Virus record (IMG/VR): IMGVR_UViG_3300043409_000980
Coordinates: 1-34,594 of that record
DNA from: a virus
Reading direction: 5' to 3' (one strand)
DNA length: 34,594 nucleotides
How positions within the stretch are numbered: the first letter of the stretch is position 1; each line of letters opens with the position of its first letter. The notes under the pieces were generated by a model. The model worked only from the letters and a program-made list of their open reading frames with translations, made no database searches and was not told where the DNA came from. Shown piece after piece: positions 3,497 through 32,883 of the stretch. The position numbers were made by a program, and so were the translations under genes.

Positions 3497-4009
3497 TCAC
3501 TCGCTCTTCATCGGAGTCGATTGAACGCCATTGTAGGCGATGGTCTTCGGGCGGTAGATGCCTACCTGCTCCGTTTCCTCGACCCAACTAGGACCGCCCC
3601 TGATATGGAAAATGCAGGAGGACATTCCGTTCCATGATTTTGTAGATGACTTGGCCGAGGTATACGCAGATCCAAACGTAGCGTTCAAATCGTCGCTCGA
3701 CATAGCCTTGACGTTGGCCCAGTCGATGTCGCCTGCATGCCACAGTTTAAATCCTAGCTCCAGCGGCGCGACGACTTCTGCGATGCCGGGAAAATGCCAT
3801 ACCCACTCGTCATGGGATGACGCATCACCGGACATAACCGCGTAGCACTGGTAATTGCCCAGCGGTACGGAGCCGCTTCCCCAGTCGCAGCTCTCGCCGG
3901 GTTTAAGAACAGCCGAGCGTGTCGGATGGTCGTTGCATTTGGGCTGCTCGAAAAGAGCAACCAATACTGGGACTTCGGTCTGATTCTCGATCTTGATGTG
4001 TGTACTCAT
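3497..4009 (-). CDS. Unknown 170-residue protein, probable beta-sandwich
   Basis: I do not recognise the family. The N-terminal half alternates hydrophobic strands (HIKIENQTEVPVLVALFE, SAVLKPGESCDWG, LGNYQCYAVMSGD) with short polar loops, suggesting a beta-sandwich. Cysteines lie at about residues 25, 41 and 55. The C-terminal half is rich in Ser, Thr and Trp. There is no signal peptide or membrane span. It lies in the early operon between two small unknown genes and the RHH gene. No clear Shine-Dalgarno precedes ATG 4009. Confidence 0.6.
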   Translation of the reverse strand: MSTHIKIENQTEVPVLVALFEQPKCNDHPTRSAVLKPGESCDWGSGSVPLGNYQCYAVMSGDASSHDEWVWHFPGIAEVVAPLELGFKLWHAGDIDWANVKAMSSDDLNATFGSAYTSAKSSTKSWNGMSSCIFHIRGGPSWVEETEQVGIYRPKTIAYNGVQSTPMKSE

Positions 4010-4021
4010 AGGTGTCGGTTG

Positions 4022-4219
4022 TTATGGGGTTGGTTGCAGGATGAAATCGAAGTTGATCTTCCAGTTGTCGCCCAGGCGATTGTAGGTGTCGTGCTTGATC
4101 TTCCAGAGTCGAGGATTGCGAGTCGTCCCAGTGTGTCGGCACCGGATTCTGACATCGATGTCCTGGATGGCGACGTTCCGCAGCCGGTGGTCGGCAGGCA
4201 GGTCGTGAAGGTGTTTCAT
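4022..4219 (-). CDS. Unknown 65-residue protein
   Basis: ATG 4219-4217 overlaps the upstream stop as ATGA. The protein is basic, rich in His and Arg in its first half (KHLHDLPADHRLRNV), then NPRLWKIKHDTYNRLGD and a hydrophobic end NFDFILQPTP. It has no recognisable domain. Its reading frame is supported by the overlap and by the 12-base gap to the next gene. Confidence 0.55.
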   Translation of the reverse strand: MKHLHDLPADHRLRNVAIQDIDVRIRCRHTGTTRNPRLWKIKHDTYNRLGDNWKINFDFILQPTP

Positions 4220-4413
4220 GTCAGCAGGTGTTTAATGATTAGGTTCCGCTCTTTGCCCTTTGCTCGGAGAATGCTCTCAAGAACAACGTGAGGGTTGATT
4301 GTCGCGACGTGTTTCCACTCTGGGCTTTGATCGACGTGCTTGGCTGTATCAAGACTTTCAACGCGCACTAATCCGTTAAATGCGTGGACGTAGATGAAGG
4401 CGCAGTCTCTCAT
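4216..4413 (-). CDS. Unknown 65-residue protein
   Basis: ATG 4413-4411 overlaps the stop of the coiled-coil gene (4410-4412). A GGAGG Shine-Dalgarno lies inside the end of that gene, about 4 bases before the ATG, which fixes this start over an in-frame ATG seven codons earlier. The protein (MRDCAFIYVHAFNGLVRVESLD...) looks alpha/beta, with a C-terminal helix LESILRAKGKERNLIIKHLLT. The family is unknown. Confidence 0.58.
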   Translation of the reverse strand: MRDCAFIYVHAFNGLVRVESLDTAKHVDQSPEWKHVATINPHVVLESILRAKGKERNLIIKHLLT

Positions 4414-4622
4414 TTTACCTCCTTCTCCTTCCACAGCAGCAGATCCGCTCGCATTGCGTCGTTTTCTGTTTCGAGATTGTTGATTCGGTCGTTGAGACGA
4501 TTTAGTTCTCTGACGATGCCTCGTGGGCGTATGTCGCTTAGGAACTTACCTTCTGGAGTCTTAATACTAAATCCGTTGAGTGGAGGCATTCGTCGCAACA
4601 GGATGTGGGTGTAGCGTTTCAC
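4410..4622 (-). CDS. Small coiled-coil protein sharing a C-terminal module with 4744-4956
   Basis: 70 residues from GTG 4622-4620, which overlaps the TGA of the small membrane gene (GTGA). GGAGG lies about 7 bases before the GTG. The N-terminus is basic; residues 40-70 form a heptad-patterned helix (VRELNRLNDRINNLETEN, then DAMRADLLLWKEK). The segment LETEND(A/S)MRADLLLWK recurs almost unchanged in the protein at 4744-4956, and the underlying DNA is duplicated. The role is unknown, but oligomerisation through the coiled coil is likely. Confidence 0.58.
   Translation of the reverse strand: MKRYTHILLRRMPPLNGFSIKTPEGKFLSDIRPRGIVRELNRLNDRINNLETENDAMRADLLLWKEKEVK
4429..4475 (-). repeat. Direct repeat copy 1 (47 bp, coding for LETENDxMRADLLLWK)
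   Basis: Matches 4766-4812 at 43 of 47 positions in the same orientation. It encodes the shared coiled-coil end of the two small proteins at 4410-4622 and 4744-4956. This indicates duplication or recombination of a gene module within the operon. Confidence 0.85.
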
Positions 4623-4747
4623 CGATTTACCTCCTTCAGTATGAAGTAAGCCGAACCAGCAATCACAAGTGCAAGCCACAGTTCTGGATGTCTCCTGTGG
4701 AACTCCAGCTCTGCTTTAACCCATGCGAGAACCTCTTTGAGTTTCAC
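4619..4747 (-). CDS. Small membrane protein, GTG start
   Basis: 42 residues starting at GTG 4747-4745, inside the GTGA overlap with the upstream gene, and ending at TGA 4621-4619 in another GTGA overlap. The N-terminal half is amphipathic (KLKEVLAWVKAELEFHRRH). A hydrophobic span follows (LWLALVIAGSAYFIL), then KEVNR. The last codons carry the GGAGG that serves the next gene. It could be a small inner-membrane or holin-like protein, but the early position argues against a standard holin. Confidence 0.52.
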   Translation of the reverse strand: MKLKEVLAWVKAELEFHRRHPELWLALVIAGSAYFILKEVNR

Positions 4748-4956
4748 GGCAACGGCCCTCCGTTCTTCCACAGCAGCAGATCCGCTCGCATCGAATCGTT
4801 CTCTGTTTCGAGTTGCGTGATGTAAGCCAGTCGTACTGCTGCGAGTCGCTCAAGTCTTCGACACAGTATACCTAGCTCGGCTACGTTGTGAGGGGTTGAG
4901 TCGGATATGGGGGTATCGCTGATCATTTTCGTGGCGTCAGGAATATGATCGCTCAT
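4744..4956 (-). CDS. Small coiled-coil protein built from two repeated modules
   Basis: 70 residues from ATG 4956-4954 (ATGA overlap; GGAG about 6 bases upstream inside the previous gene). The N-terminal module MSDHIPDATKMISDTP is nearly identical to the start of the protein at 5300-5785. The C-terminal module QLETENDSMRADLLLWK matches the protein at 4410-4622. Between them is a Leu/Arg-rich helix (ELGILCRRLERLAAVRLAY). This chimera looks like the product of recombination between neighbouring genes. Function unknown. Confidence 0.6.
   Translation of the reverse strand: MSDHIPDATKMISDTPISDSTPHNVAELGILCRRLERLAAVRLAYITQLETENDSMRADLLLWKNGGPLP
4766..4812 (-). repeat. Direct repeat copy 2 (47 bp)
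   Basis: Same orientation as 4429-4475 with four mismatches. It encodes the C-terminal coiled-coil module of the 4744-4956 protein. Confidence 0.85.
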
Positions 4957-4958
4957 TT
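4913..4958 (-). repeat. Direct repeat copy A (46 bp, codes for MSDHIPDATKMISDT)
   Basis: Matches 5742-5787 at 44 of 46 positions in the same orientation, covering the start codon and the first 14-15 codons of each gene. Homology extending over the start suggests the 5' end was copied as a unit. Confidence 0.88.
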
Positions 4959-5303
4959 CGACTCCTTCCATTTGCCAACCGTCCTCAGAAATGCCTCTGC
5001 GCGTTGACGAGCGGTGGCTTGTAGAATGCGCGTCATCCCGTCCAGTTCCGACATTTGCTCAGCCTCAAGCACTCGCATCAGATTCACCGCAAACTCAAGC
5101 CATGCAGTTGATCCACCAAGTGCAACCATCTCTGCTTGGCGCATCGCGTTGAGGTCTTTGCAGAAACTTGGGACACCAAGTTCAGCCTCGTTTGGGTGTG
5201 ATGTTCCACGAGGAAACCATACGCCACACCGAATATCTCCGCAGGCGCACTTCGCCCATCCAAGCTGCAAAGCGATTGCTTCGTTGATTTCTTCGTCTGT
5301 CAC
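4953..5303 (-). CDS. Phage ABA-sandwich-like protein, GTG start
   Basis: 116 residues from GTG 5303-5301 (GTGA overlap with the upstream stop). The pattern is that of the widespread phage ABA sandwich domain: an N-terminal helix (DEEINEAIALQLGW), a Cys-rich middle (KCACGDIRCGVWF), a PSFCKDLNAMRQAE segment, and a C-terminal ATARQRAEAFLRTVGKWK helix. Members are common early-region phage proteins of unknown role. The final codons (KESK) contain the GGAG that serves the next gene. Confidence 0.65.
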   Translation of the reverse strand: MTDEEINEAIALQLGWAKCACGDIRCGVWFPRGTSHPNEAELGVPSFCKDLNAMRQAEMVALGGSTAWLEFAVNLMRVLEAEQMSELDGMTRILQATARQRAEAFLRTVGKWKESK

Positions 5304-5785
5304 GGCTTGGCCTCCTTGGCTTTGCGCCAGTTGACGGTTGCCAACAGGTCGTAGGTCTGGGTATTGGCTAGCGCATCCCCCGCCTCCTCCAGCCGCTTGA
5401 TGCGCTCCCCTCTGTCTTCGTACAACGCAACGTCCGCAACCAGCGCGGCGTGCTTGTTATTCGCGTCCATTAGATCCTCCTCTAACATCTTTATGCGCTC
5501 TTGTAACCCACGCACAACAACCACTCCCTGCTCGATTTCGTCTGTTCCAAGCAATTCTCGGAACTCTTCGCGGAGGCTGATCTTTTGATCGGCTTGCAAT
5601 CGTGCGGTGTTACGCTCTGCAACAAGCAATCGAATGCGGTCTTGAGCGGTGGCAAGTTCGCGTTCGATGTCACAACCAACCTTCCAGATATTGGCAAATC
5701 CAGCATCGGGAGCGTTGAAGAGTGCTGCTTCCATCCTCGGTGTATCGCTGATCATTTTCGTGGGGTCAGGAATATGATCGTTCAT
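5300..5785 (-). CDS. Coiled-coil protein with the DHIPD N-terminal module
   Basis: 161 residues from ATG 5785-5783 (ATGA overlap; GGAGGA about 6 bases upstream). It begins MNDHIPDPTKMISDTP, the same module as the 4744-4956 protein. Residues 45-145 form a long heptad-rich helix (ELATAQDRIRLLVAERNTAR, LQERIKMLEEDLMDANNK, ERIKRLEEAGDAL). No catalytic motif is seen. A structural or scaffold-like early protein is possible. Confidence 0.62.
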   Translation of the reverse strand: MNDHIPDPTKMISDTPRMEAALFNAPDAGFANIWKVGCDIERELATAQDRIRLLVAERNTARLQADQKISLREEFRELLGTDEIEQGVVVVRGLQERIKMLEEDLMDANNKHAALVADVALYEDRGERIKRLEEAGDALANTQTYDLLATVNWRKAKEAKP

Positions 5786-5787
5786 TT
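5742..5787 (-). repeat. Direct repeat copy B (46 bp, codes for MNDHIPDPTKMISDT)
   Basis: Second copy of the 4913-4958 repeat with two mismatches, in the same orientation and at the same position relative to the start codon. Confidence 0.88.
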
Positions 5788-6856: not shown

Positions 6857-7651
6857 TTAGTTTTCGGATTTATTCAGAACCCACTTAGGGCATGAAAGGG
6901 TTTGCGTCGCTGTTGGGTAGGCTGGCCAACTGTCCAGTGCGCGGCATTCGTGCAGCGTCGAGATTGCCTTCCTACGAAGGTTCGCGCCAGCCTGAAGCCA
7001 TTCGGCATCCAGTCGATAGATGGCGACAGCATACGGAGCCTTACGCTCGACCGCCACGAAGATGAAGCTATCAGCGCCAGTCATCTCCAGATAGTGCGCG
7101 GCCTGTATATGATAGCCGAACGAGGCGATGGTTCGCAGGAACGCCTCGGGCGATGCGTCGTCGGTTGTTTTGATGTCAACGAGCGTATGACCCTCGATCC
7201 ACAGATCGGGACGTGCCTTGAGAGCAATGCCGGTTTCCTCATCCTGAGCGAACACGCTGGCTTCGATCCGGTGGTCGAGATGAATGATGTCCCAGAACGG
7301 ATGGCGACGGACAGAGTTGGCCACACCTTGCACGTCGATGTCTTCAGCGTGAGTCAGGTGGATGCGGCTCTTATGCTGCTCCTTCCACTGCTTTCCTTCC
7401 TTCGTACGTCCATCGATGTCCGGCGGAATCACGGCGACGACTTGCGAGTACAGTTGCGGTTCAAGTACAGCGGTATGAATCGCCGTACCCATCTGCATGG
7501 CCTTGGACGGCTCCTGATGCTCCTCTAGCGCGGCCCGATAGTGCGCCGGGGACTTGAGGATCTTCGACATCATGCTTTTGCTTAGAGCATCAACGGCGTG
7601 ATACTTCTCCGCTGGCATGTCGAGGTTGACGTGTTGGTTGAGAATGCTCAT
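6857..7651 (-). CDS. RecE-like PD-(D/E)XK exonuclease
   Basis: 264 residues of the exodeoxyribonuclease VIII-like phage nuclease family. Motifs: LSKSMMSKILKSPAHYRAAL near the N-terminus, MGTAIHTAVLEP (about 54-65), the catalytic ALKARPDLWIEGHTLVDIKTT (about 142-163; Asp in PDLW, Asp-x-Lys in VDIKTT), and FGYHIQAAHYLE. It would resect duplex ends 5' to 3' to give single strands for the RecT-like annealase encoded just upstream, to which it is coupled by an ATGA overlap (7648-7651). Confidence 0.85.
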   Translation of the reverse strand: MSILNQHVNLDMPAEKYHAVDALSKSMMSKILKSPAHYRAALEEHQEPSKAMQMGTAIHTAVLEPQLYSQVVAVIPPDIDGRTKEGKQWKEQHKSRIHLTHAEDIDVQGVANSVRRHPFWDIIHLDHRIEASVFAQDEETGIALKARPDLWIEGHTLVDIKTTDDASPEAFLRTIASFGYHIQAAHYLEMTGADSFIFVAVERKAPYAVAIYRLDAEWLQAGANLRRKAISTLHECRALDSWPAYPTATQTLSCPKWVLNKSEN

Positions 7652-8448
7652 TCGGTGGGCGGGTTAGCGAACGCCTTAGCCTTGGAGATGAAGCCGTCGG
7701 CATCGGCGAGGATCATGTTGGCCACCTTCGTGGATACATCGCGGAAGTTCTGGCCTTCCTTGATCAAGTTCTTGCTGATGAGGAACGCATTCGCTGCCTC
7801 GGAATGTGGCTCAAGAATCTGCTCTAACTTCTCAACGAGCGAGAAGGCTGATTCCGGCGTCACGTTGACTGTCTGGCGCGTCGTAGCGGTGACGGTGGGT
7901 GTTGACGGCGCAGCAAAATCAGCAGCCTCCTCCGGGGTATAGACGCCAGCAACAACTTCAGGTGCGAGCATTCGAATAGCCTTGGAAATACAGCGAGCGC
8001 GGAGCATAGCTGCCGGATCTTTCTGCCATCCAGAACCAGCCTTAGCGGGAAGCAGTCCTGCGATTTTTGCGTCCTCGGTCGTAAATCCGATTTCGCATTC
8101 GTTGCCGTCGAATTTCCAAACTCCGATAGCAGCAGTCGAATCGAACTGCTTCCAAATGACCTTACCGCCCCGAGTCCGATATCCGGCGAGCATCGCGTCT
8201 GAGCGCATCGTCAACGAGCCGTTGACCAGATGAAACTCTCGCTTGAAGTCGAACGGAGTCTTGCGAGTGGCTAGGCATTCAAGGGCGATCATGTTGCCTT
8301 GCTCGTCCTTCTGACAGTTGAAGACTCCGCTTCGCGCAATCCACGATCCGAGTTCCTTGACCGCTTCAAGCGATGTTCCGATGCGGGAGTAGAACTCTCC
8401 GTCAGGACTGACTGGCGGTTGCGTTGTTGCTAATAGGTTGCTGCTCAT
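7648..8448 (-). CDS. recT: RecT-like single-strand annealing protein
   Basis: 266 residues with RecT-family features: GGKVIWKQFDSTAAIGVWKF, ECEIGFTTEDAKIAGL, and the conserved KDPAAMLRARCISKAIRMLA followed by PEVVAGVYTPEE. The C-terminal third is variable, as usual in the family. It pairs complementary single strands produced by the RecE-like nuclease. ATG 8448 (MSSNLL) is chosen over an ATG 12 codons upstream because homology begins later and the upstream codons are low-complexity. An HNH endonuclease gene lies just upstream. Confidence 0.85.
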   Translation of the reverse strand: MSSNLLATTQPPVSPDGEFYSRIGTSLEAVKELGSWIARSGVFNCQKDEQGNMIALECLATRKTPFDFKREFHLVNGSLTMRSDAMLAGYRTRGGKVIWKQFDSTAAIGVWKFDGNECEIGFTTEDAKIAGLLPAKAGSGWQKDPAAMLRARCISKAIRMLAPEVVAGVYTPEEAADFAAPSTPTVTATTRQTVNVTPESAFSLVEKLEQILEPHSEAANAFLISKNLIKEGQNFRDVSTKVANMILADADGFISKAKAFANPPTE

Positions 8449-8507
8449 TTGTATTCTCTTGTTGTTTCTTTGTTGTTTACACATCCACTGAACTCAGCGG
8501 ACAAAAT

Positions 8508-11499: not shown

Positions 11500-11572
11500 G
11501 ATTTGATGCGCGGATGCGGTTTATTCGTGGGATTTGATGCGCGGACAGGGTTTACCGGATAATCGGAGCGGC

Positions 11573-24274: not shown

Positions 24275-24565
24275 TTAGTATTGTTTTTCAAATGTTGCTT
24301 CAGGTTCTCTCGTTGTGTCGGTTACTGCAAGTTTTCGAATGTTTTCGAGGCAATGCGCGTATCCAGCAGTCACGCCAGCAGCGAAAACAATGTCCGATTC
24401 CTTGCTTCCTTGGGAGGGCATAGGCACCGGCATCGATTCAGCTACGATGCGTAAAGCCATCCGAAGAATCGGATTTCGTAAAATAAGCGCAAGTTCGCCC
24501 TGTTGGCCAGCCGTTGTCCATTCGAGAATGTCTACCTCAGGCAAGTCCATCAGGCTTTTCGCCAT
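24275..24565 (-). CDS. Unknown helical protein between scaffold and glycan cassette
   Basis: Up to 96 residues; the start is uncertain (ATGs at 24607, 24565 and 24550, all inside the end of the upstream gene). AAGGAG directly abuts ATG 24565. The core is helical (VDILEWTTAGQQGELALILR, NPILRMALRIVAESMP, then VTAGYAHCLENIRKLAV). The ILRNP...GYxxxLENI layout looks like a small virion-associated protein, but I do not recognise it. Confidence 0.5.
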   Translation of the reverse strand: MAKSLMDLPEVDILEWTTAGQQGELALILRNPILRMALRIVAESMPVPMPSQGSKESDIVFAAGVTAGYAHCLENIRKLAVTDTTREPEATFEKQY

Positions 24566-25892
24566 CTCCTTGCGGTTCTTCGTCGAGCCTCTTAGCCAGT
24601 TCATCATACTTTGATTTCTTGTTTCGTTTTAGTTTATGTCTCTGCGGAATTGGATCGAGAACTTCGTCGAGTTTGATTGGGTTCTCTTTGTTGACGACGT
24701 CGCGTTTCGGTCGAATCACCTTCGTCACCTCAAGCAAGTCGGCCAACGGAATCTTGATGTAACCACAGTCCACATCGTTGATTCCGTACGAGACGACAAA
24801 CTTATTCTTTGCGGTATCGAAGAATGCGCCGCACGGGAAGACTACCGCAGGCAATCCCGGCCACCAATCCTGCTGATTCGTTCCAGTCAGAAGCGGCAGC
24901 GTCGTCATTCGGACGATGCGGAAAGGCGGCTTCGCTTCGAAAGCGTAGGCACCCATGTAGTAACGGCGCTTCTTGTTGATCCACGGCAGCGAGCTGTGGA
25001 AGAAGGTCCAGTACAGGCCGTCGCATAGGATCGGATTGGAGCCTCCGCGCACCTCGCCAAACTTCCAGAGCGGATTGAACTCGTCGGTGACGTATTCCTC
25101 CTCCTTCTCTAAACGCCCATTAAGGCGCACAACGACGTGAGGATTGGCCGAATACACCATGTGCGGCGCGTTATCGTGGACGAAGTAGAGCCAGTTCTTC
25201 TCATGGCCATCGTTGATCATGGCCTGCGCGTAGTTGTTGCCGTAGATCATGTCGAAGCGGCCTACGTTCAGAAAATGCTTGTCCAGAAGGAACATCCCTT
25301 GGTGCGCGTAGCTCTTGAACGGGACGAATGTGCAGCACGCAAGCCCGTACTTGTCGCCGAATTTGAGGACGCGAGGGTCTTCAAACTGTTCAAGGGGGTA
25401 ATGGGAGATTAACTGGGTCAGAGACTTCTTTGTGGCGCGAAGATCCTGACTCAGCTCGAACACGACAATGTCGTTCTTCTCGATGTAGACATCCTCGTCT
25501 TTCTCGCGCTTGTTACGGCAGCGACGGGCAAAAAGCATGATTCGACCATCCGGTTCGAGCATGATTGCCGGGTTGAAGTAGTACGTCCCCGTTTCCTGCG
25601 GCAGGACGATTTTACCAGTCTCCCAATCGGTTTGTTCACTCAGCTTGGGGACGTCATTTTTTGCGTAGCTCATTAGAAACTCGGCAGCGAATTTGATTTC
25701 ATCGTAGAGGGCAAGCCAATGATCGCGCTCCTCGCGGACCTCGGTCAGATGCTCGTCATGTTCTTTGGTTCGAATCTCAAGCGTTTTGCGAAGGTCTTCG
25801 ATTTCCTGAAGAAGATCAGCCGGACCATCGCCGCCCGTTGCAAATCGTTTGAGAGCCTTGAGGGACAGACTTCGGATTATGTCTTTCATCAT
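24537..25892 (-). CDS. Beta-propeller glycoside hydrolase/phosphorylase-like protein (GH130/GH43-like)
   Basis: 451 residues. Residues 25-75 form a coiled coil (LLQEIEDLRKTLEIRTKEHD). The rest looks like a five-bladed propeller: YYFNPAIMLEPDGRIMLFAR, LEQFEDPRVLKFGDKYGLAC, GEVRGGSNPILCDGLYWTFF, and KRRYYMGAYAFEAKPPFRIV. The FNPxxxLxPDGRxxLFAR, EDPRVL and GGSNPI signatures recall GH130 mannoside phosphorylases and related GH43-like proteins. The C-terminus is basic (RHKLKRNKKSKYDELAKRL). It may cut or bind sugars added by the neighbouring transferases. Catalytic residues could not be assigned with certainty. Confidence 0.55.
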   Translation of the reverse strand: MMKDIIRSLSLKALKRFATGGDGPADLLQEIEDLRKTLEIRTKEHDEHLTEVREERDHWLALYDEIKFAAEFLMSYAKNDVPKLSEQTDWETGKIVLPQETGTYYFNPAIMLEPDGRIMLFARRCRNKREKDEDVYIEKNDIVVFELSQDLRATKKSLTQLISHYPLEQFEDPRVLKFGDKYGLACCTFVPFKSYAHQGMFLLDKHFLNVGRFDMIYGNNYAQAMINDGHEKNWLYFVHDNAPHMVYSANPHVVVRLNGRLEKEEEYVTDEFNPLWKFGEVRGGSNPILCDGLYWTFFHSSLPWINKKRRYYMGAYAFEAKPPFRIVRMTTLPLLTGTNQQDWWPGLPAVVFPCGAFFDTAKNKFVVSYGINDVDCGYIKIPLADLLEVTKVIRPKRDVVNKENPIKLDEVLDPIPQRHKLKRNKKSKYDELAKRLDEEPQGDGEKPDGLA

Positions 25893-31201: not shown

Positions 31202-32883
31202 GCTTCAATCGTTTCGTCGTAGTAAATTGAATCTGCGTCCTTCACTAGCTTTTCCCAGACCTTATCCATCTTTGTGAAGCGCGGCTCTAAAACAGCAGTT
31301 TTGCGGACCAGATCAAGCAAGACTACAGCAGCGTCGGCCAAATCAGGCGATTTTCCCGTCCGTTGCTTCATCACGGTCTTGGATTCGACCGATATCTTCC
31401 GCTTGGAATCATCGAACATACGGGCGCAGAACTCTTGAAGTGTCTCGATATCCATGCCGCCAAGGCGCTCTTCAACGGCCCATTTACGCATCGAGAACCA
31501 GAGTTCTGTCACCTTTCTATCGTAAGCCTCATTGCATGGCCTACTGTCCTCGTCGCTGACAGGAATCGTTGATGGCGAGCCACCGAATTCAACGCGATGA
31601 ATTACACCCCATTCGCGGGTCAAGATGTCGGCCAAACCACCGCCTTCACCGCTTGAATCCAGACCAAATTTGTCCGGTGGAACACCGCGCTTGTTGCATT
31701 CCTCTTTAACCCGATTGGCTATCTGGTAATGCACCGGCTCCGTTAGCTGAGCGTTGACGGATATGTGGATGATGTCCTGAAAAAGTATGCTGACCTTGTC
31801 GTTTGCGGTGCCAACCTTGGCAAAGCGAAGGATACATCTGTCACCGCCAAAGCCCGGATCAAGACCGGCTACAATTTGGACGTTGGTCGTAAACACCAAA
31901 TTCTTTGTAGGTGTGTGCGTCTCGATCAATGATTCGGACAAGACCGTCTTGACCATGCCGTCCGGCGACCAGAATCCGCGTGTGTACTTCCAGAACGTAG
32001 GGCTTTGCTCGCCCTCATGGCGCATTGCCGACAAGACCTGATCCTGAGTAATAAGGTACGGATACTTCGTGCGCCCCTCGCTGATGTTCGGCGACTTCAT
32101 GCCGTCAAAGCGTCGGCACATCCCGCGTTCTGTCAGCCAATGCTGGTCTTCAATCGTTACGCTGCGCCAACCCTTTGTCGGTGTGCAGAAGCGTCCGTGT
32201 GGATCAAACTTTGAGGCAGGGTTTCCGATGACCAACATCTTGAACTCGCGGCAACCCTTAGAAAGGTTCGTACACGCTTCGAAAGCCGCTTCAGGCGTAT
32301 CCGTAGCTTCGTCGATAATAACCATCACACGCTCGGCGTGGATGCCCTGAATGTTGGCCACAGCCTTGGATGTGTTGCCCTCGGCGACGGCGATAGCGGA
32401 AATGGAATGTCGGTCGTCGCCTTTGATGGCTTGAAGACTCATCTTCGAATCGACCATGTTTCCGGGGAATCCGCGTGATTTCCGAACAAGATCTTGAAGA
32501 TTGGCCCACATACGCTTTCGGATCATCTTTGCCGTCGTAGACGTAAGAACAACGGTTGTCTTGGAGGGGTTTGCCAGCCACCAAACAGTCGCAAAGAGCG
32601 TCGCGCCGAAAGTCTTTCCGCTCGCACCGCAACCGGCCCATCCGACGTAGTCGTGTTCACAAAGACCTTCGACTTGTGCTTCGAGCCACGGGTTCCAGCT
32701 CATCTTCGGCCATAACATTTTCGTGGCGTTACGAAAATGATCGAAAGTACCCAGTCCGCCCTCATTCGGTTGGAGCCGATTTCGGAATGCGTAAAGTTCC
32801 AGTTCTAGGTCTGGAATCTTGACTGGCGAACGAATCCCGTACTTGTGGTCGATCAATGGATGCTCTGACACTTGCTCTGGCAT
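31198..32883 (-). CDS. terL: Terminase large subunit
   Basis: 561 residues. The packaging ATPase domain has Walker A GCGASGKT (about residues 85-92) and Walker B VMVIIDEATD (about 187-196). The RNase H-like nuclease domain shows IVAGLDPGFGGDRCILRFAK, FGLDSSGEGGGLAD and SPDLADAAVVLLDL, with the expected acidic residues. ATG 32883 (MPEQVSEH) is preferred over the longer frame because AAGG lies 7 bases upstream; ATG 32898 is an alternative. It heads the leftward head-assembly operon, divergent from the collagen-like fibre gene. Confidence 0.94.
   Translation of the reverse strand: MPEQVSEHPLIDHKYGIRSPVKIPDLELELYAFRNRLQPNEGGLGTFDHFRNATKMLWPKMSWNPWLEAQVEGLCEHDYVGWAGCGASGKTFGATLFATVWWLANPSKTTVVLTSTTAKMIRKRMWANLQDLVRKSRGFPGNMVDSKMSLQAIKGDDRHSISAIAVAEGNTSKAVANIQGIHAERVMVIIDEATDTPEAAFEACTNLSKGCREFKMLVIGNPASKFDPHGRFCTPTKGWRSVTIEDQHWLTERGMCRRFDGMKSPNISEGRTKYPYLITQDQVLSAMRHEGEQSPTFWKYTRGFWSPDGMVKTVLSESLIETHTPTKNLVFTTNVQIVAGLDPGFGGDRCILRFAKVGTANDKVSILFQDIIHISVNAQLTEPVHYQIANRVKEECNKRGVPPDKFGLDSSGEGGGLADILTREWGVIHRVEFGGSPSTIPVSDEDSRPCNEAYDRKVTELWFSMRKWAVEERLGGMDIETLQEFCARMFDDSKRKISVESKTVMKQRTGKSPDLADAAVVLLDLVRKTAVLEPRFTKMDKVWEKLVKDADSIYYDETIEA

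Follow-up and report, generated by a model that had tools for sequence, protein, structure and literature searches.

A 30-nt imperfect palindrome, here called E1, forms the core of a 5' module that two small genes of an environmental virus record have in common; it lies in frame directly after the second codon, and by inspection one of its reading frames alone is open. There is about an even chance that E1 is a mobile protein-coding palindrome, similar to the Rickettsia palindromic elements but only 30 nt long and carried by phages, which doubles as a recombination joint. This reading draws on features visible in the aligned sequences, namely identity at the DNA level, independent exchange of both flanks, presence and absence, inversion, and position at joints. 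The small helical phage proteins concerned are assembled from interchangeable blocks, and sequence comparison shows that recombination exchanges these blocks where short stretches are conserved. We infer that the palindrome reached these genes by few insertions, with the act of insertion, its enzyme and any benefit all being presumed; its later spread would be due mainly to recombination that uses the homology of the palindrome itself and of adjacent sequence, and it would thereby serve as a joint for swapping gene parts. The RecE/RecT-like pair encoded nearby could promote the exchange, as a candidate role.

Small genes and exchangeable modules

The window, meaning the whole stretch of DNA analysed, is the 34,594-base virus record IMGVR_UViG_3300043409_000980 of IMG/VR, and the features discussed here are collected in Table 1. 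The RecE-like and RecT-like genes are located upstream of genes A, B and C on the same strand. Genes A, B and C had no credible match in Pfam, PHROG or NCBIfam, and the phage record collection contained no DNA or protein similar to the window; no cultured phage relatives of the gene families were found, all relatives being metagenome contigs. Rfam matches and tRNA were absent from the window, and defence families gave only matches with E about 0.005. Elsewhere the window carries a gene with a glycoside hydrolase family 130 match (24537-25892; Pfam PF04041, 5.7e-11) and a phosphoadenosine phosphosulfate reductase-like gene (799-1617; phrog_424, 1.4e-37). An assignment to a host was set aside as too weak, the link being one 4-kb contig of a Verrucomicrobiota MAG.

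Table 1. Positions of the small genes, their repeated modules and the recombination genes in the window.
Feature	Positions	Strand	Basis and description
Gene A	4410-4622	minus	ORF, GTG start; KRYTHILLRRMPPLNGFS... body and RADLLLW tail; relatives found
Gene B	4744-4956	minus	ORF; N-box, DTPISDSTPHN middle, RADLLLW tail
Gene C	5300-5785	minus	ORF; N-box, DTPRMEAALF middle, long coil
3' module copy in gene A	4429-4475	minus	repeat comparison; LETENDAMRADLLLW
3' module copy in gene B	4766-4812	minus	repeat comparison
5' module copy in gene B	4913-4958	minus	repeat comparison
5' module copy in gene C	5742-5787	minus	repeat comparison
E1 (30-nt palindromic element) in gene B	4921-4950	minus	codons 3-12, peptide DHIPDATKMI, 12/15 positions paired
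E1 (30-nt palindromic element) in gene C	5750-5779	minus	peptide DHIPDPTKMI, 11/15 positions paired
RecE/exonuclease VIII-like gene	6857-7651	minus	phrog_412, 3.7e-78; DUF3799
RecT-like annealase gene	7648-8484	minus	phrog_561, 9.4e-25; Pfam RecT at its cut-off

The two pairs of repeats that the original prediction had placed here were borne out at the positions given in Table 1, with two mismatches between the copies of the 5' module and four between those of the 3' module (counted by eye); the 5' repeat extends to 57 nt at 91% and the 3' repeat to 57 nt at 86%. The longest exact direct repeat between positions 4200 and 6000 measures 27 nt, compared to at most 13 nt in 200 dinucleotide shuffles; both repeats are far beyond chance. 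The description of these loci as three neighbouring genes that share ends holds in part: genes A and B have the tail alone in common and genes B and C the start alone, and the genes are not directly adjacent, since other small ORFs separate A from B (4619-4771) and B from C (4953-5303). The palindromic nature of the 5' module as a DNA element had been missed.

Relatives were obtained through protein searches of IMG/VR (loci L003-L335), and regex extraction yielded 291 distinct genes, 53 of which were dropped by a stricter filter that kept 238. Their common plan begins with a leader containing a ribosome-binding site, an optional N-box of ~10 residues, DTPR or DTPI, and a variable middle; it continues with a coil of the LERELNAANxRIKRLEEAGD type, sometimes with extra coil blocks, and a variable tail that often ends in KEAKP. 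The 238 genes comprise 47 middle clusters and 92 tail clusters, which occur in 149 middle-tail combinations and 162 start-middle-tail combinations; 16 pairs of middles have at least two tails in common, resulting in 41 four-gamete quartets (the clustering thresholds are our own, and the contigs are not independent). The blocks nonetheless clearly have separate histories.

Individual joints can be followed in the relatives. The 150 nt upstream of gene C recur with 100% identity in L043 and 98.7% identity in L387, where they precede bodies of the gene B type; L013 has a body of the gene C type behind an upstream region of the gene B type. The 3' module (RADLLLW) is joined to many unrelated bodies, and its distinct contexts number 157. 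The joints predicted from the 5' repeat are thus present in relatives, together with many other module combinations, and the genes show rearranged joints rather than perfect conservation, so that the module exchange originally proposed is upheld; its proof requires these relatives, although the window alone had been offered as direct evidence. The proposal that the middle gene is a recombinant of its two neighbours was not sustained, nor was its origin as a fresh recombinant of genes A and C: the full design of gene B recurs in other phages (for example L044), and its 3' module is attached to many different bodies. The suggested link to the RecT-like annealase is not supported either: when five further records whose gene starts carry E1 were compared, its RecE-like partner was unmatched in two and only 42% identical in one, although the records may be incomplete.

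A structure prediction for gene C by AlphaFold2 (9 sequences, mean pLDDT 79) indicates a helix from residue 28 to 142 and leaves the first 16 residues unstructured, at low confidence; because of this predicted N-terminus, the N-box would be located where an insertion is tolerated. In L031, L155 and L168, some genes start at an ATGATCAGC (peptide MISDTP) similar to the palindrome's end, as though a joint had formed within the element.

Conservation, folding and distribution of the palindrome

E1 is 96% identical over 30 nt in 3491 pairs that are unrelated both upstream and downstream, within a set of 93 distinct contexts; these contexts were chosen by a DNA pattern that fixes most E1 bases, so that the value arises partly by construction, and neither contexts nor pairs are independent. 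In the same 93 contexts, 81 pairs have the upstream region in common but not the body, and 50 pairs the body but not the upstream region. Some of the E1 scans used composite queries, and two of the 49 extracted 30-mers were judged false. The unbiased test is that of third codon positions, for which the loci came from protein searches only: across 53 contexts, third-position diversity was 0.004 within E1 and 0.54, 0.65 and 0.56 in the three codons that follow; for comparison, fourfold-site diversity in the RecE-like gene was 0.222 (35 rows). Codon 6, at the tip of the hairpin, is the sole freely varying codon of E1, and its amino acid changes. Since third positions are frozen while the tip codon alters the amino acid, the conservation appears to reflect a constraint on DNA or RNA, or a recent spread as DNA, and not a selected peptide.

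The two arms of E1 covary at 0.200 among 47 natural variants, versus 0.114 when shuffled (0 of 500) and at most 0.098 in slid registers; this set leaves out one idealised row and two non-family copies. Pair 7-24 is unpaired in all 47 variants, and two measures, the pairs with a double change and the number of pair types, were no higher than in shuffles (233 and 492 of 500, respectively). The RNA of E1 alone is predicted to form a hairpin (z -4.1); within its gene context the advantage of the fold over shuffles is only weak (z -2.0 and -1.7). Taken from phage sequences only, the case for a maintained hairpin is moderate.

Near-identical genes with and without E1 are 95-100% identical over the 75 nt downstream; in L047 and L215, which differ in the presence of E1, these 75 nt are identical, and in L021 and L150 both flanks are alike. 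E1 is absent from most genes of the family (158 without vs. 49 with the element), and such presence and absence at DTP starts could also arise by recombination of gene starts. Five contexts have E1 in the opposite orientation at an unchanged position, where the encoded peptide is DHFREVRNMI or DHFRDVRNMI. The triplets that flank E1 agree in only 23 of 49 cases (AGC/AGC in 19, AAC/AAC in 4), and consequently there is no clear target-site duplication. For the mid-gene copies described below, a comparison of the RPEPSRLE-type family yielded no empty site whose flanks matched. Among 20 carrier virus records, neither a Y1 (REP-type) transposase nor a BRO-N/DinD protein was detected (0/20 each), and no insertion enzyme was found in terms of these two candidates; DinD as a phage-encoded binder of the palindrome was discarded on the same count.

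A scan of the whole virus collection returned at least 119 stretches, and among those listed, most are starts of DTP-family genes; a few other gene bodies (DGGPAFP, ETACNAT) carry E1 at the same start-proximal place. The same 30-mer or near variants also occur in other phages in mid-gene position, between a coiled coil and an RPEPSRLEIAA-type sequence, with two of these copies on contigs of about 200 kb. This second family (L529-L607) is itself mosaic, consisting of a variable coiled coil, a RPEPSRLEIAAM handle, a variable part and a ADALIAAAKEAK end, and at that junction it also contains degenerate forms related to the element. In the records tested, neither the terminase nor the RecE-like gene of the window was matched in the mid-gene carriers; weak RecE-like matches were obtained in a dinD-bearing record (G316). 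Palindromes with at least 12 of 15 positions paired in the E1 frame were counted in 82 contexts of 605 virus loci (4.64 Mb) and in none of the reversed sequence: 71 are DTP starts, six belong to the RPEPSRLE type, and five are others, including one (L373) that by eye is another DTP start.

Several minor occurrences accompany this distribution. In a phage record from Manatee Spring, DHLRDATKMV is encoded within a different open frame. Two palindromes lie side by side in L371 (~3820-3890) and L419 (~11500-11565), where a DHFADVGKM or DHVPDGGKMV type adjoins a DHFR type; the arrangement suggests tandem or repeated insertion. Within the window, the terminase-like gene contains a related palindrome (32713-32742, 11/15 paired) with the peptide DHFRNATKML. 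Its interpretation as a third inserted copy was rejected: the listed terminase relatives match nearly the whole query, and the peptide is present in 52 of 80 relatives (regex) in several codon variants, as expected of a native sequence. A high-copy host repeat was rejected as well; the strict pattern occurred in 8 of 288 genomes from the phylum of the MAG behind L448, and in six of those eight it lies in dinD-type genes.

Competing explanations

Counting against mobility, nearly all copies (71/82) occupy one position of one family, a clustering that fits few insertions followed by recombination but also a regulatory site. The main rival is a start-proximal DNA operator or mRNA hairpin for a shared regulator, which would occupy codons 3-12 in a number of early genes, be conserved because it is bound, and travel with the gene starts through recombination; we regard it as unlikely, but as a serious contender. 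It would account for the predominance of DTP starts, for the DGGPAFP and ETACNAT bodies with the palindrome at the same place, for frozen synonymous sites next to a varying tip codon, and for the predicted hairpin of E1 RNA; yet in other phages identical copies sit at a module junction within genes, most family genes do without the element, the RNA fold in gene context is weakly better than shuffles, and the 20 carrier records contain no BRO-N/DinD protein. Selection on the peptide itself, with DHIPDxTKMI as a functional tag and the DNA alike through recent spread alone, is highly improbable: the near-constancy of the peptide among E1 genes would be explained, but the inverted element encodes a different peptide at the same place, the amino acid at the tip codon varies although synonymous positions are frozen, and the N-terminus is predicted to be flexible, at low confidence.

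Improbable, too, is plain local duplication and divergence within one operon, that is, ordinary phage mosaicism in which the palindrome has no special role and the short homologies are conserved parts where recombination happens. The simple direct repeats of the window are compatible with it, as are the 3' module, which is not obviously palindromic and yet is shuffled too, and the frequent occurrence of short fragments common to phage proteins in the cited parts of PMC10684548; conservation of the same 30-mer at the DNA level, its inversion and its presence in unrelated phages speak against it. Chimeric metagenome assembly at repeats could create false joints, and every relative is a metagenome contig with no cultured counterpart found; this is the least probable explanation, as the same joints recur across metagenomes (L016/L017, L011/L022, L047/L048, L041/L042). 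A wider form of the mobile-palindrome reading, which we hold tentatively and at somewhat less than an even chance, would make the 30-nt coding palindrome a dispersed phage joint element with a single open frame, functional in either orientation; it would give unrelated small genes a shared recombination point, so that libraries of parts are shuffled across lineages without a common terminase or RecE-like gene, and dinD would represent its old, nearly perfect form.

Relation to known elements and to dinD

Rickettsia palindromic elements and Wolbachia protein-coding palindromic repeats are reportedly due to Ogata and colleagues. The start-associated sequences of cluster K mycobacteriophages are a conserved element just upstream of start codons, whereas E1 is situated inside the coding sequence. 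According to the cited portions of the sources, the Rickettsia and Wolbachia elements are about 100-150 bp long and reside in bacterial chromosomes (PMC10969869, PMC2229807); like them, E1 is palindromic DNA that is able to fold back, contains an open reading frame and lies in frame within genes unrelated to one another (DTP, DGGPAFP and ETACNAT starts, and the RPEPSRLE junction), but it measures 30 nt, is phage-borne and is tied to the shuffling of gene parts. REPs, as characterized in the cited part of PMC8266576, are short imperfect palindromes, typically extragenic, with a cognate Y1 transposase, TnpA-REP; E1 resembles them as a dispersed short imperfect palindrome on the 20-40 nt scale and differs from them in that its copies are coding (77 of 82 contexts are coding positions of two families) and that no Y1 transposase was present in 20 carrier records, a count limited to virus records, from which host genomes may differ. 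PARCEL repeats, in the cited account (PMC2996958), are palindromic coding DNA that has spread horizontally in proteins of unknown function as 25-residue tandem repeats, in contrast to the single 10-residue copies of the likewise palindromic and coding E1. Smug et al. (2023; PMC10684548) reported, in the cited parts of the study, ongoing shuffling of fragments between otherwise unrelated phage proteins, with mosaicism strongest in receptor-binding, lysis and polymerase proteins; fragments common to otherwise unrelated proteins were found here as well, but in small helical proteins of unknown function and with a palindromic joint. As far as these sources go, protein-coding palindromes, mainly from Rickettsia and Wolbachia, and the shuffling of phage protein fragments are already known, and a search of open-access papers found no description of palindromic coding elements for phages. 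New here are a much shorter protein-coding palindrome, its occurrence in abundant environmental phages, and its tie to very active shuffling of small proteins; this provides a system in nature, open to counting, in which the assembly of new small phage genes from parts can be studied, and bears on whether a DNA palindrome can drive protein evolution.

A look-alike is found in a DNA-damage gene of several bacterial groups: dinD genes (BRO-N) of bacterial genomes, plasmids and phages contain, at one place, a 30-nt palindrome of the form DHFxDVx'KMV, and a plasmid dinD matched the perfect palindrome at 30/30. Its codons 4 and 7 are reverse complements, with 2.86 of 3 bases in agreement compared to 1.34 after permutation (0/2000), for 21 distinct motifs extracted by regex from 24 of 33 loci; the nine other loci include four with weaker or variant palindromes (L637, L644, L646, L649), one with none (L643), and four without a readable motif. 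In a covariation set of 24 sequences, with three distinct variant palindromes added, pairing reached 94.6% and covariation 0.455 vs. 0.166 when shuffled; compared to random synonymous recoding, 4 of 23 motifs had p above 0.0134 (0.023 to 0.12). The dinD palindrome and the phage element agree in 30-nt length, frame and the H..K-M positions, and differ in that the former is fixed inside one domain and nearly perfect; at codons 4 and 7 some phage N-boxes have GTT/AAC, but E1 has CCT/ACG. The likeness suggests that both may belong to an older family of protein-coding palindromes. Quasi-palindrome correction during replication could keep such palindromes without selection. The literature search yielded no relevant paper on DinD with palindromes. 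Nearly perfect in-frame dinD palindromes were observed in L620-L642, L608, L610, L442, L644 and L647.
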